Part shown: positions 32,972 to 37,902 of the stretch, piece after piece | How the letters are laid out: each line of letters starts with the position of its first letter | Position numbering within the stretch: position 1 is the first letter of the stretch | Assembly: GCA_002730735.1 (NCBI GenBank) | Contig: PCAU01000001.1 | Coordinates: 272,925-336,924 of the forward strand | Length of the DNA: 64,000 bases | Origin: Acidobacteriota bacterium | Lineage (GTDB): Bacteria > Acidobacteriota > Vicinamibacteria > Vicinamibacterales > UBA823 | Direction of reading: 5' to 3' | Notes under the pieces: generated by a model | Databases searched by the model: none | What the model saw: only the letters and a program-made list of their open reading frames with translations | Told to the model about the DNA's origin: nothing | Position numbers and translations under genes: made by a program

Positions 32972-34612
32972 CTAGGACCGGAGCCGCTTTTTCTCTGAAG
33001 CCCGTTCAGCTTGGAGACGTTCGAGGTCCACGGCCGAATGATCAGCGAATCGCATCGCGGCCGCGATAGCCCGGTGACCTGCCTTTTCGGCAATTAGTCG
33101 ATGCATTGCTTGACAGACACGTCGATACGCTGGATGTCCCTGCGGGGCACTCCTGAGCTCAATCACGTGCATGGCTTCTCGCGCGTTCATGTGCATGTAA
33201 AAGCGGATACGGTATGCCATGGCGACTGCATACGGTGCCACCGCGCCGAGGGTCGCCTTCTGCAGAGCTTCGTGTAGCTCAACCGATGACTCCATGACCT
33301 GCCGCCAGTCGGCAAGGGCACCGGCTTCTTCGATTGCTGCTGGTTCGTTGAAGCCGTGGTCGGTTGTCAGATCCTGCCATTCAATGCTGAGCAAACGATG
33401 TCTTTGGAGATCGCGAAATGCGCCGTAGTCCGATAGCACATCGAAACGGTAACCAGTGCGCTCAAATGCGCGGCCCGGCTTATGGCGGCGGTTTGTCCTG
33501 GCGCCGATGTAGGCTTTTAAGATTGACGCCCGCTCGCTGGCCGACATCTGCCTCGCCATGGCGAGTAGCTGAGAATCTGGCAGGTTTGACACCGCATAGA
33601 GTGCGGCAGCGACCACTTTGACCTCGCCGTCTGGATCAAAATCGACCAACGACACCTCATCTCGTAGTTGGGGGTCGATGTCAGCCAATACGGTCATTGA
33701 TGTTTGTTTTAGGTCAGTCTGCGTAGTGCTTAGATAGTCGCTCCACAGAACGCCTCGGTTGGGCAGGTCAACACGTGTCAGGAACGCAGGGATCACCTTG
33801 CGCAGTTCAATTAGCATCATCTCCGCATATCGCTGCATCTCGGTCAGTGGATGTGCGCGCATTTGTAGAAGCAATCTTTCATATGCCTGCCCAGACCCGA
33901 AAATGCCCACGTTGGATTGCGTTGCCGCCGGTAAGAGGCCACGTAATGTATCAAGGGCCTTCGCACGGATCGCTGCCCGGTAGACACCGTCCGAATCCTC
34001 TGGATCCTTCGGATGCTTGGCCTTGTAGTAATCCTGCATCGGTTCGATCCACCGGTTATAAATTTCGAAAGCGCGATCGAGGGTCCGGACGTACTGAGCG
34101 CGCAGTGTCGTCCCGTTAAGTTCTTCCGGGATTAAGTATTTCCAGTGGCCTTGCGGGCGGTCGGTGTAGGGTATGTAGCGTGTTGATTGTTCGAGATACG
34201 CTGCGAGCCTACCCCGCTCCAGCACCTTCGTTAGGAGGTTTGAGGCACCCTCACAGGCGATGTGCGCCCCGCCCAACTGAGCGACCGAGTCATCGCCGTA
34301 CTCGTGGAAAACGCGTGTGTAGAGTCGCTCGGCACGCTCGACGCCAACATCTGGCGCCTGACGGTCGGCTCCGGAAACTTTGTCGGTGAATTCATCGAGA
34401 AACAGTCGACGCAGCGATTTTGCGGATCGCGAGTATCGGGCAAAGAGTGCTCCCTTGACGACGTCCGGTAAATTTGTCAGCGCGAACACTGGTCCCTCGA
34501 GATTCGTGAAATACGGTTCGAGGAGCCGTCGTTCCTCTGGGGTGAATGATTCGGCAGATGGGCGTTCGTCGGGCACGCCGTATAATAGTCGGGCGGTGCG
34601 AGGTTCCGTCAA
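32972..34612 (-). CDS. Duplicated ThyX-like (FAD-dependent thymidylate synthase) protein
   Basis: A 546-residue protein that looks like two fused ThyX domains, about residues 40-290 and 300-530; a normal ThyX is about 220-250. Domain 1 has VLERGRLAAYLEQSTRYIPY, which fits the ThyX motif RHRx7S except that the His is Gly. Domain 2 has LQRHRLLSIEWQDL, with RHR intact but the final Ser replaced by Asp. ThyX makes dTMP using methylene-folate and FAD with active sites between subunits, so the two halves might complement each other or the protein might have another role. The start is TTG at 34612 preceded by GGAGGAAGGAAGG. It diverges from the thioesterase gene with 25 bp between starts. Confidence 0.78.
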   Translation of the reverse strand: MTEPRTARLLYGVPDERPSAESFTPEERRLLEPYFTNLEGPVFALTNLPDVVKGALFARYSRSAKSLRRLFLDEFTDKVSGADRQAPDVGVERAERLYTRVFHEYGDDSVAQLGGAHIACEGASNLLTKVLERGRLAAYLEQSTRYIPYTDRPQGHWKYLIPEELNGTTLRAQYVRTLDRAFEIYNRWIEPMQDYYKAKHPKDPEDSDGVYRAAIRAKALDTLRGLLPAATQSNVGIFGSGQAYERLLLQMRAHPLTEMQRYAEMMLIELRKVIPAFLTRVDLPNRGVLWSDYLSTTQTDLKQTSMTVLADIDPQLRDEVSLVDFDPDGEVKVVAAALYAVSNLPDSQLLAMARQMSASERASILKAYIGARTNRRHKPGRAFERTGYRFDVLSDYGAFRDLQRHRLLSIEWQDLTTDHGFNEPAAIEEAGALADWRQVMESSVELHEALQKATLGAVAPYAVAMAYRIRFYMHMNAREAMHVIELRSAPQGHPAYRRVCQAMHRLIAEKAGHRAIAAAMRFADHSAVDLERLQAERASEKKRLRS

Positions 34613-34637
34613 CCTTCCTTCCTCCCCGCGCTAGGTC

Positions 34638-35072
34638 ATGGGTAGTAGCTTTCATCACTCAATCGACGTCAGGTTTCGAGATTGTGATGAGTTTGGCCAC
34701 GTGAACAACGCGGTTTACTTCACTTACCTCGAAGAAGCACGCTGGGTGTTTTTACGCCACTTGCAGGGCCGGTCCCGCGATCACGGCTTGACCGATAGCG
34801 ACAGAGTGCCGAAGCAGCCGGGAACGATCCTGGCGCACGCCGAATGTGACTTCCGATCGGAGGCTAAGTATGGTGACGTCCTTGATGTGTTGGTGAAGGT
34901 TTCCGCAGTTGGGCGTTCGAGTTTCAGTTACGAATACGAGGTCATCGAAAAATCGAGCAGCCGACTGATAGCAACAGCGAAATCCGTGCAGGTGTCCTAC
35001 GACGCCGTAGCCAAACGGCCGGTCCCCATTCCCAATGCATTACGCGTTGTACTCGAGGAAACGTTACGGTGA
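34638..35072 (+). CDS. Hotdog-fold acyl-CoA thioesterase (YbgC/FadM-like)
   Basis: A 144-residue thioesterase of the 4-hydroxybenzoyl-CoA thioesterase group. FRDCDEFGHVNNAVYFTYLEEAR holds the catalytic Asp and the substrate-pocket residues of this family. AHAECDFRSEAKYGDVLDV and SFSYEYEV complete the fold. It hydrolyses acyl-CoA esters; chain preference is unknown. The start ATG 34638 is preceded by a weak TAGGT. TATAAT at 34581-34586, inside the start of the divergent ThyX-like gene, is a possible promoter. The selenoprotein-like gene begins 25 bp downstream on the same strand. Confidence 0.88.
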   Translation: MGSSFHHSIDVRFRDCDEFGHVNNAVYFTYLEEARWVFLRHLQGRSRDHGLTDSDRVPKQPGTILAHAECDFRSEAKYGDVLDVLVKVSAVGRSSFSYEYEVIEKSSSRLIATAKSVQVSYDAVAKRPVPIPNALRVVLEETLR

Positions 35073-35096
35073 TTCCGCAAGAGAGGAATGAGTAGC

Positions 35097-35321
35097 ATGA
35101 ATCAGATCGTCTACATCTTCGGCAAAGACACGTGACCTTATACCACTGCTGCCCGTGAGGACTATGCCAAGCGGAACATTGAGGTCGATTATGTCAACGT
35201 TAAGGAGGACGCTGACGGGTTGCGTCGCATGCTGGAGTACACTGGCGGTCGACGTAAGGTTCCAGTGATTGTTGAGAATGACACGGTCACGACAGGATTT
35301 GGCGGCACATGAGGGGTATGA
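35097..35321 (+). CDS. Glutaredoxin-like selenoprotein with two in-frame UGA (UXX-star type)
   Basis: Reading from ATG 35097 gives 12 residues, TGA at 35133-35135, 58 residues, TGA at 35310-35312, Gly-Val, then TGA at 35319-35321: 74 residues if both internal TGA encode selenocysteine. The N terminus MNQIVYIFGKDT-U-PYTTAARE puts the first TGA where glutaredoxins have the first active-site Cys. RRKVPVIVEND carries the cis-proline of the thioredoxin fold and VTTGFGG replaces the usual C-terminal GG loop. The end is U-G-V-stop, which fits what I recall of the UXX-star small selenoprotein families. AGAGGA lies nine bases before the ATG. The coding quality is continuous across the first TGA, unlike a decaying gene. 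The sequence shows the codons; selenocysteine insertion is inferred. Confidence 0.8.
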
Positions 35322-35339
35322 TGGCTGCCGGTGGCAGCT
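35310..35339 (+). promoter_or_regulatory. SECIS-like hairpin after the second in-frame UGA
   Basis: Six perfect pairs, GCTGCC (35324-35329) with GGCAGC (35333-35338), plus a flanking G-T pair, close on the triplet GGT at 35330-35332. Counting the UGA as bases 1-3, the loop GU lies at 22-23; in the E. coli fdhF SECIS the essential GU is at 23-24. The bulged U of the E. coli element is not reproduced. The first UGA (35133) also has GU at 23-24 but only a weak CC/GG stem around it. Confidence 0.5.
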
Positions 35340-35653
35340 TTATTATTGGGCGCCGAAGGGATTAAACGGTGCGTGTCTCTGTCAGTCAAGATTGACAGCT
35401 GGCGCGCGCGGCACGATAATTGCCGCTCGGAATCTCGGACCGTCGTAATTATCCTCAGTTGGGAGTCAGGCGCTTTTGTTCTTCAGTCGCATTTTTTCGA
35501 TCCGCAAGGCGTCGTCGTTTACCCTGTTCACTCAGCATTAGTTCTTCCGCCTACGTCGTTACTCTTCTCAGTCATCTCATTCTGCTTCATAAGCTCGGGG
35601 TTCCACTTCCATTCTGTGCTAGTGAATCCCGGTTTGTTTCATGACGAGGTGGT
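35322..35653. other. Non-coding gap after the selenoprotein gene
   Basis: About 330 bp holding the SECIS-like hairpin at its left end. Open frames here lack any recognisable motif or ribosome site and are rich in unusual residue runs. No terminator with a T-run and no RNA gene is seen. The right end supplies GAGGTGG for the MBL gene. Confidence 0.55.
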
Positions 35654-36454
35654 ATGCACTATGAGCTGATTCCTGCGCACAACCCCGGGTCCTACACCGG
35701 GTCTGGTAACAATACCTATCTCCTTAACGGAAAATCACCTGTGCTGATTGATGCGGGCACCGGTGATTCTCGGCATGTTACAGGCGTCGCCGACGCGTTA
35801 GTGCAGTCGCCGAGCACTTCGCTAACGAAGGTTCTCGTGACTCATGGGCACGCCGACCACGCTTCCGGCATTAGCGCACTCATGACAAGGTGGCCAGAGG
35901 TTGTGGCCGCTAAGATGCCTTGGCCGGAACGCGACGATCGCTATTCGGTGTTCTGGACTCCAATCGCCGACGGTGATTTGATCCCAGCCGGTGATACAAC
36001 ACTCCAGGCTGTGCACACGCCAGGTCATGCGCCAGACCATCTGTGCTTCTTGGATAGCACTTCCAGGGTTTTATTTACTGGCGACCTTGTGGTTAGCGGA
36101 AGTACCGTGATGATTCCAGGAAGTTCCGGGGGCGACCTAGTCGCATATCTCGCGTCACTTCAGCGCGTGCTTTCGCTCAAGCCAACCCGGCTGCTCCCGG
36201 CGCATGGGCCCGCAATTGACGATCCAGTAACTCTTGTGCGGCACTACCTTGATCATCGCCAATCGCGTGAAGATCAAATCTTGGCGGCAATCCGAGCCGG
36301 TATTGACACAGTGGACGGGCTAGTGTCGCGTGTCTATGGGTTTCTGGAGCCGCAACTCATTCCGGCAGCTCATGAAAGCGTTTTGGCACATCTAAAGAAG
36401 CTCCGCGTCGAAGATCGAATCCAAACCGACGCGAACCGTTGGACATCGACCTAA
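35654..36454 (+). CDS. MBL-fold metallo-hydrolase, LACTB2-like
   Basis: A 266-residue protein. NPGSYTGSGNNTYLL and PVLIDAGTGD form the start, THGHADHASG the metal-binding HxHxDH motif near residue 64, VHTPGHAPDHLCF the third His, FTGDLVV the bridging Asp, and LPAHGPAI the last His. The C-terminal winged-helix-like part (residues about 205-265) is shared with LACTB2, an RNA endonuclease, and with related hydrolases. The substrate may thus be RNA or a small ester. GAGGTGGT before the ATG fixes the start. The dipeptidase gene follows by 44 bp and may be co-transcribed. Confidence 0.87.
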   Translation: MHYELIPAHNPGSYTGSGNNTYLLNGKSPVLIDAGTGDSRHVTGVADALVQSPSTSLTKVLVTHGHADHASGISALMTRWPEVVAAKMPWPERDDRYSVFWTPIADGDLIPAGDTTLQAVHTPGHAPDHLCFLDSTSRVLFTGDLVVSGSTVMIPGSSGGDLVAYLASLQRVLSLKPTRLLPAHGPAIDDPVTLVRHYLDHRQSREDQILAAIRAGIDTVDGLVSRVYGFLEPQLIPAAHESVLAHLKKLRVEDRIQTDANRWTST

Positions 36455-36498
36455 GGTTGTTTGTCCGCTGTTGACTGAACGGCATCACGAAGGTCTAT

Positions 36499-37902
36499 AT
36501 GAACACCATCATCGATTTTATTCACACGAACCGAGATCGTTACATTGACGAGTTGAAAGCCTACCTAGCGATTCCAAGTATCAGCGCGTTACCCGAGCAC
36601 GCTGCGGACGTAAGACGCTGTGCAGAATGGACGGCGGAAGAAATGCAACGGGTCGGCTTGGATCACGTTCAGCTTTACGAGACACCCGGCAATCCGATCG
36701 TTTGCGGAGAATGGTTGAAGGCTGAGGGTGCGCCCACCATTCTTTATTACGGACACTACGACGTCCAACCAGTCGACCCGCTAGAGCTTTGGGAATCGCC
36801 GCCTTTTGAAGCCACGGTGCGAAGTGGCGAGATCTATGCGCGTGGCGCAGCCGACGACAAAGGCCAGGTGTTCATGCACCTTAAGGCGATCGAGGCGCAC
36901 CTGAGACAAACCTCTAGGTTGCCGGTGAACATGAAGATCGTTCTAGAGGGTGAAGAGGAGGTTGGTAGCGAGAACCTTGATGCCTTCATCCGCGATCGGC
37001 GTGATGAGTTGTCCGCCGACGTGGTCGTAATTTCCGATTCCCCGATGTTCGATCGCGGCGTACCGTCCATTTGTTACGGTCTCCGAGGACTCACGTATTT
37101 CCAGATTGACCTCCGTGGTACGGCGAGCGACTTACACTCTGGCTCGTTCGGTGGTGCGGTTGCCAATCCGGCTTTCGTATTGAGCCAGGTGCTCGCACAG
37201 ATGAAAGACCGCGGCGGTCGGGTGAAGGTCCCAGGCTTCTATGATGCTGTACGTCCGTTGCGAGAGGAAGAGCGTGCCGAATTCAAGAAACTACCGTTCA
37301 ACGAAAAGCATTACCGCAAGGAAATAGGGGCACCCAAATTGTTTGGCGAGAGGGATTACACAACGCTCGAACGTGTATGGGCTAGGCCGACGTTCGAAGT
37401 CAATGGTCTTCAGTCGGGCTTCACTGGTGATGGAGCTAAGACTGTTATTCCGGCGACCGCGACGGCGAAGGTAAGTATGCGGCTTGTGCCGGATCAGGAG
37501 CCTGATACGATCGCCGAACAGTTTGAGGACTATCTTCGCAAAGTTACGCCGAAGACGGTTACGTTAGCCGTTACACGCATGCATGGTGGGAGGCCTTGGA
37601 TGACCGAATTTGACAATCCTTATGTGCAGGCCGCCGCCCGTGCGGTCGAGCGAGGCTTCGGACAACAACCTGTGTTTAACCGTGAAGGTGGTTCGATTCC
37701 GGTCGTGGCGACTTTCCAGGAGGTGCTTGATCTACCATCGGTGCTGTTTGGGATTGGCCTACCAGACGAAAATGCACACGCGCCAAATGAAAGATTGGAT
37801 CTCGGTAATTTTTTTAACGGCATCATTGCCTCAGCTTGTTTGTACGATGAGATTGGCCAGCTAACTGGTCACGCGGCAACCGCGGAATCGGGTGGTGGAT
37901 GA
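36499..37902 (+). CDS. M20 family metallo-dipeptidase
   Basis: A 467-residue peptidase. YYGHYDVQPVDP holds the first zinc His and catalytic Asp, GAADDKGQ the bridging Asp, LEGEEEVGSENL the catalytic Glu and zinc Glu, VISDSPMF the next Asp, and the distal His is in DENAHAPNERL. Residues about 200-370 form the dimerisation lid, beginning RGLTYFQIDLRGTASDLHSGSFGG. This layout is that of the carnosinase-like CNDP group, cleaving dipeptides in the cytosol. No signal peptide is present. GAAGGTCTAT precedes the ATG. Confidence 0.93.
   Translation: MNTIIDFIHTNRDRYIDELKAYLAIPSISALPEHAADVRRCAEWTAEEMQRVGLDHVQLYETPGNPIVCGEWLKAEGAPTILYYGHYDVQPVDPLELWESPPFEATVRSGEIYARGAADDKGQVFMHLKAIEAHLRQTSRLPVNMKIVLEGEEEVGSENLDAFIRDRRDELSADVVVISDSPMFDRGVPSICYGLRGLTYFQIDLRGTASDLHSGSFGGAVANPAFVLSQVLAQMKDRGGRVKVPGFYDAVRPLREEERAEFKKLPFNEKHYRKEIGAPKLFGERDYTTLERVWARPTFEVNGLQSGFTGDGAKTVIPATATAKVSMRLVPDQEPDTIAEQFEDYLRKVTPKTVTLAVTRMHGGRPWMTEFDNPYVQAAARAVERGFGQQPVFNREGGSIPVVATFQEVLDLPSVLFGIGLPDENAHAPNERLDLGNFFNGIIASACLYDEIGQLTGHAATAESGGG

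Follow-up and report, generated by a model that had tools for sequence, protein, structure and literature searches.

Locus and coding features

A stretch of 64,000 nucleotides from the genome of an Acidobacteriota bacterium (assembly GCA_002730735.1, contig PCAU01000001.1, positions 272,925 to 336,924; hereafter the window, whose first letter is position 1) was analysed for a small selenoprotein gene at positions 35097-35321 of the forward strand. When TGA is read as selenocysteine (Sec, U), this interval encodes a 74-residue protein with a glutaredoxin fold, with the sequence MNQIVYIFGKDTUPYTTAAREDYAKRNIEVDYVNVKEDADGLRRMLEYTGGRRKVPVIVENDTVTTGFGGTUGV, followed by the stop codon TGA (35319-35321); a GAGAGG stretch is located approximately 10 nt 5' of the ATG. 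The features of the gene are as follows:

35097..35321, + strand: UXX-star family 1 selenoprotein gene (74 amino acids, Sec13 and Sec72, stop TGA); frame open only with two TGA codons read as Sec; NF041114, 117 bits
35133..35135, + strand: Sec codon 13 (UGA) in the glutaredoxin active site UPYT; the aligned codon is TGA in 87 of 96 homologues and Cys in nine
35310..35312, + strand: Sec codon 72 (UGA) in UGV-stop; the aligned codon is TGA in 94 of 96 homologues
35136..35180, + strand: probable selenocysteine insertion sequence (SECIS) region for Sec13, located within the reading frame, with the core GCC-CGU-GAG
35323..35339, + strand: SECIS hairpin for Sec72, GGCUGCC-GGU-GGCAGCU, wholly past the stop codon; its loop lies 17 nt after UGA72, and the rules for bacterial SECIS elements (bSECIS) fit

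Translation bore out the coordinates and motifs of the original prediction, i.e. two in-frame TGA codons, T-U-P-Y-T (with UPYT as residues 13-16), G-T-U-G-V-stop around residue 72, and an intact KVPVIV segment; the helix after the active site is intact as well. The read-through product matched the Pfam glutaredoxin model PF00462 (E 1e-9) and the NCBIfam model NF041114, 'UXX-star selenoprotein family 1' (117.1 bits with a cut-off of 72; E 3e-34; profile positions 1-70 of 70). The interval is almost certainly a real, functional UXX-star gene with two Sec codons.

Conservation and the meaning of TGA

Related genomes and the genomes of species in several phyla supplied the homologues, from which identical copies were removed; 96 genes, including the window's own copy (L031), were readable at both sites. 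The metagenome-assembled genomes (MAGs) of origin are labelled Acidobacteria, Methylomirabilota, Deltaproteobacteria/Desulfobacterales, Armatimonadetes, Planctomycetota, and others. The codons at sites 13 and 72 are TGA/TGA in 86 genes, Cys/TGA in eight, TGA/Gly in one and Cys/Ser in one; homologues with Cys or Sec at both positions, as the original prediction had anticipated for a genuine gene, were thereby found. Since the read-through product matches PF00462 and NF041114, and 86 of the 96 homologues keep both TGA codons, the gene is not a chance reading frame.

Nine homologues carry Cys at site 13 (L025, L029, L059, L061, L064, L113, L119, L126 and L127), and eight of these nine keep UGA72, which makes the C-terminal Sec the more strongly conserved one. 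The C-terminal Sec is lost in two homologues, L075 (GGA, Gly; Sec13 kept) and L059 (TCA, Ser; Cys13).

Under the standard code the frame is broken twice, as would be expected of a decaying pseudogene in which two Cys codons had mutated to TGA; however, 86 of the 96 distinct homologues, which span several phyla, retain both TGA codons, and the gene has neither a frameshift nor any further stop. Furthermore, comparison with two close relatives (NG86) gave nonsynonymous rates (dN) far below the synonymous rates (dS), with dN 0.031 and dS 0.230 for the first relative and dN 0.105 and dS 0.638 for the second; purifying selection thus acts on the frame both between the TGA codons and around them. 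The pseudogene reading was rejected on these two grounds, and its probability is regarded as negligible.

The homologues terminate with TGA (48 genes), TAA (34 genes) or TAG (14 genes); as half of them end in TGA, this codon serves as both Sec and stop in UXX-star genes. A genome-wide reassignment of TGA, e.g. to Trp or Gly, in an organism without selenocysteine would account for the read-through at this locus, which is all that speaks for it, whereas TGA is the stop of the window gene itself and of 48 of the 96 homologues, the alternative residue at site 13 is Cys in nine of nine cases, and selA, selC and selD are found in the genome. This explanation was likewise rejected, given that TGA ends the same gene and that Cys is the alternative at site 13, and is considered extremely improbable.

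Predicted selenocysteine decoding

We infer the incorporation of Sec at UGA13 and UGA72 itself from sequence; the reality of the gene, the conservation of the UGA codons, the machinery and the post-stop hairpin are computed results. The source assembly (1.58 Mb, 61% complete) contains selA (E 3e-137), a tRNA-Sec gene (selC) with the anticodon tca (UCA), and selD (E 6e-105) with one in-frame TGA, which is read as G-U-A-S-K:

G000:C1:157627-158553, - strand: selD (L017) of the source assembly (G000), in-frame TGA within the G-U-A-S-K motif

Because of the in-frame TGA in this motif, the selenophosphate synthetase SelD of the source genome is likely a selenoprotein itself.

The post-stop hairpin was assessed with the bSECIS rules as quoted in PMC13188914 (hairpin 16-37 nt after the UGA; G at the first two loop positions). 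A hairpin that follows these rules was found after UGA72 in 89 of the 96 homologues, whereas in dinucleotide shuffles 33 passed on average and 41 at most, and the stem sequences of the post-stop hairpins differ widely among the homologues. The MAFFT alignment of these hairpins is too loose for column-wise pair counts, hence we claim no covariation score in the formal sense; the tally of stem pairs sequence by sequence, derived from each sequence's own fold, is descriptive only.

For UGA13, the hairpin test was passed by 35 of the 96 homologues (mean 19, maximum 26 in shuffled sequences). The residue at Sec+7 is Arg, encoded by CGT in 73 of 87 Sec13 genes, whereas of the 276 Arg codons at other positions of these genes only 33 are CGT (Fisher p 4e-36; the counts are from related genes, so that the p-value overstates their independence), and CGT encodes Arg at this position in just two of six Cys13 genes. 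This preference is a strong nucleotide-level constraint at the would-be loop site, 18 nt after UGA13, which supports a predicted in-frame element.

Two points weigh against the decoding of both UGA codons as Sec in this organism. The window copy alone fails the bSECIS hairpin test after UGA13, with no clear bSECIS fold, and the source assembly, at 61% completeness, yielded no selB. Positions 34000-36500 contain no SECIS element that Rfam recognises, and the hairpin and codon tests on the family took the place of that search. The strongest SelB match in the source genome (192 bits, in a frame of 396 amino acids) is below the cut-off and covers the GTPase part only. As the congeners have a match of the same size beside a true SelB of 659 amino acids, it was not accepted as SelB and most likely represents EF-Tu. 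The gene selB is present in three of three congeners and, in a sample of the phylum, in 18 of 18 other genomes with a UXX-star gene above the cut-off; the source assembly is the only exception, and about one third of the genomes in the sample are without a selB match. Incompleteness of the assembly is the best explanation for the missing selB. Of the machinery that the original prediction had proposed to look for in this genome, selA, selC and selD are thus in place, and selB is outstanding in the assembly though encoded by all congeners.

Relation to known selenoprotein families

The assignment to the UXX-star type with two Sec residues, as originally proposed, is supported by the NF041114 score and by a 2026 review (PMC13188914), which lists NF041114 as 'Distant Grx-like protein 1' with UxxT and two Sec. 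The window protein also matched the parent model NF041212 (94.5 bits with a cut-off of 66), and NF041114 was matched by 28 of 28 aligned relatives as well. The four features of family 1 that were examined were all observed in the window protein, i.e. a score above the model cut-off, a U-x-x-stop C terminus, UxxT with two Sec, and a glutaredoxin-like fold. It shares with this family the active-site Sec in UxxT, the position of the other Sec codon three codons ahead of the stop, and the length, and there is no substantial difference; the window copy is an acidobacterial one, which shares 91-95% identity with those of two deposited MAGs of Acidobacteria.

The original prediction had implied that Sec at the redox site, in addition to the C-terminal one, would be rare. 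This is not so: two Sec residues are the usual form of UXX-star family 1, the dual-selenol design is the standard state of the family, and the family, the fold and the two-Sec layout are already catalogued. The main text of the 2008 Global Ocean Sampling (GOS) paper (PMC2398784), which is cited by PMC13188914 for UXX-star family 1, names no two-Sec glutaredoxin, therefore the prior knowledge of a two-Sec family rests on PMC13188914 and the NCBIfam listing.

UXX-star family 2 (NF041211), which is listed with one Sec (PMC13188914), and family 3 (NF047338) are alike in fold and C-terminal layout, but the window protein scored 54 and 46 bits on these models, below the cut-offs of 100 and 97, respectively. 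Similarly, the C-terminal domain of the HUGP/GUXX-star fusion selenoprotein (NF045501) matches the window protein, which is without the N-terminal domain of that model and scored 50 bits (cut-off 325). Classical glutaredoxins, including the selenocysteine form with UxxC that is listed in PMC13188914, share the glutaredoxin fold and begin the active-site motif with Sec or Cys; in contrast to these, the window protein lacks a further Cys in that motif, carries a C-terminal Sec, and is shorter at its C terminus.

Insights into structure and function

The AlphaFold2 model of the window protein is confident (predicted local distance difference test, pLDDT, 93.7); it has a glutaredoxin-like fold and ends in a strand, whereas classical glutaredoxins have a terminal helix, which is absent from the model. 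Its best matches in the PDB are small glutaredoxins and NrdH-like redoxins, including the glutaredoxin entries 7c10/7c12; by sequence comparison, too, these two groups are the nearest.

In the proposed mechanism, SelB with Sec-tRNA(Sec) would decode UGA13, aided by the in-frame SECIS downstream, and UGA72 would be decoded via the SECIS hairpin just past the stop codon, with translation stopping two residues on. The product would be a short glutaredoxin/NrdH-like thioredoxin fold that bears two selenols, one in the N-terminal position of the active site and the other three residues away from the C terminus. The UPYT motif would provide no resolving residue within the active-site motif; Sec13 would attack the substrate, and Sec72 may serve either as resolving residue or as the other ligand, in a diselenide- or metal-binding pair. 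This role is suggested for Sec72 because Sec13 lacks a partner in the motif and Sec72 is near the C terminus. We give such pairing of Sec13 and Sec72 an even chance; the Cys13 forms that keep Sec72, and the homologue L075 with Sec13 and Gly72, count against it in that the pair is not strictly coupled.

Metal binding or unidentified substrates have been suggested for the Sec residues of UXX-star proteins (PMC13188914). The two-Sec protein might thus be made as described and function mainly in the handling of metals or metalloids, its selenols being soft-metal ligands rather than agents of thiol-disulfide exchange, and the UPYT motif without a second Cys or Sec is in favour of this. The fold and the cis-proline motif are glutaredoxin-like, however, and the neighbours that were checked are genes for a thioesterase and for a metallo-hydrolase rather than for mercury or arsenic functions, so that we regard a main role in metal handling as a somewhat doubtful, though credible, option.

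Gene neighbourhood and implications

The gene is flanked by two genes on the same strand:

34638..35072, + strand: YbgC/FadM-like acyl-CoA thioesterase, upstream neighbour (Pfam PF13279/PF03061; TIGR00051 just below cut-off)
35654..36454, + strand: metallo-beta-lactamase-fold hydrolase with BLACT_WH domain, downstream neighbour (Pfam PF00753, PF17778)

The thioesterase reading frame ends 24 nt before the ATG of the UXX-star gene. The order thioesterase, UXX-star, metallo-beta-lactamase-fold hydrolase (34638-36454) is kept within the genus and the family, and in several other genomes of the order one or other neighbour is found close to the UXX-star gene; when loci labelled as other phyla were searched for the window's thioesterase and hydrolase proteins, neither of them lay near it. 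Further upstream, a reading frame for 546 amino acids (32972-34612, - strand) matches the Thy1 (ThyX) family in two stretches and is far longer than a usual ThyX.

The conserved adjacency of the thioesterase and hydrolase genes may reflect lineage synteny and not function. Alternatively, the conserved cluster could indicate that a thioester or acyl-thiol metabolite (linked to CoA or to a low-molecular-weight thiol) is the target of the two selenols; we consider this improbable, and if true, it would be the first concrete substrate class for the UXX-star family.

Gene calling with the standard bacterial code would break this double-selenoprotein gene, and reading of the raw sequence recovers a real one. 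The biological news is small: the locus adds an acidobacterial copy with conserved neighbours to a catalogued family.
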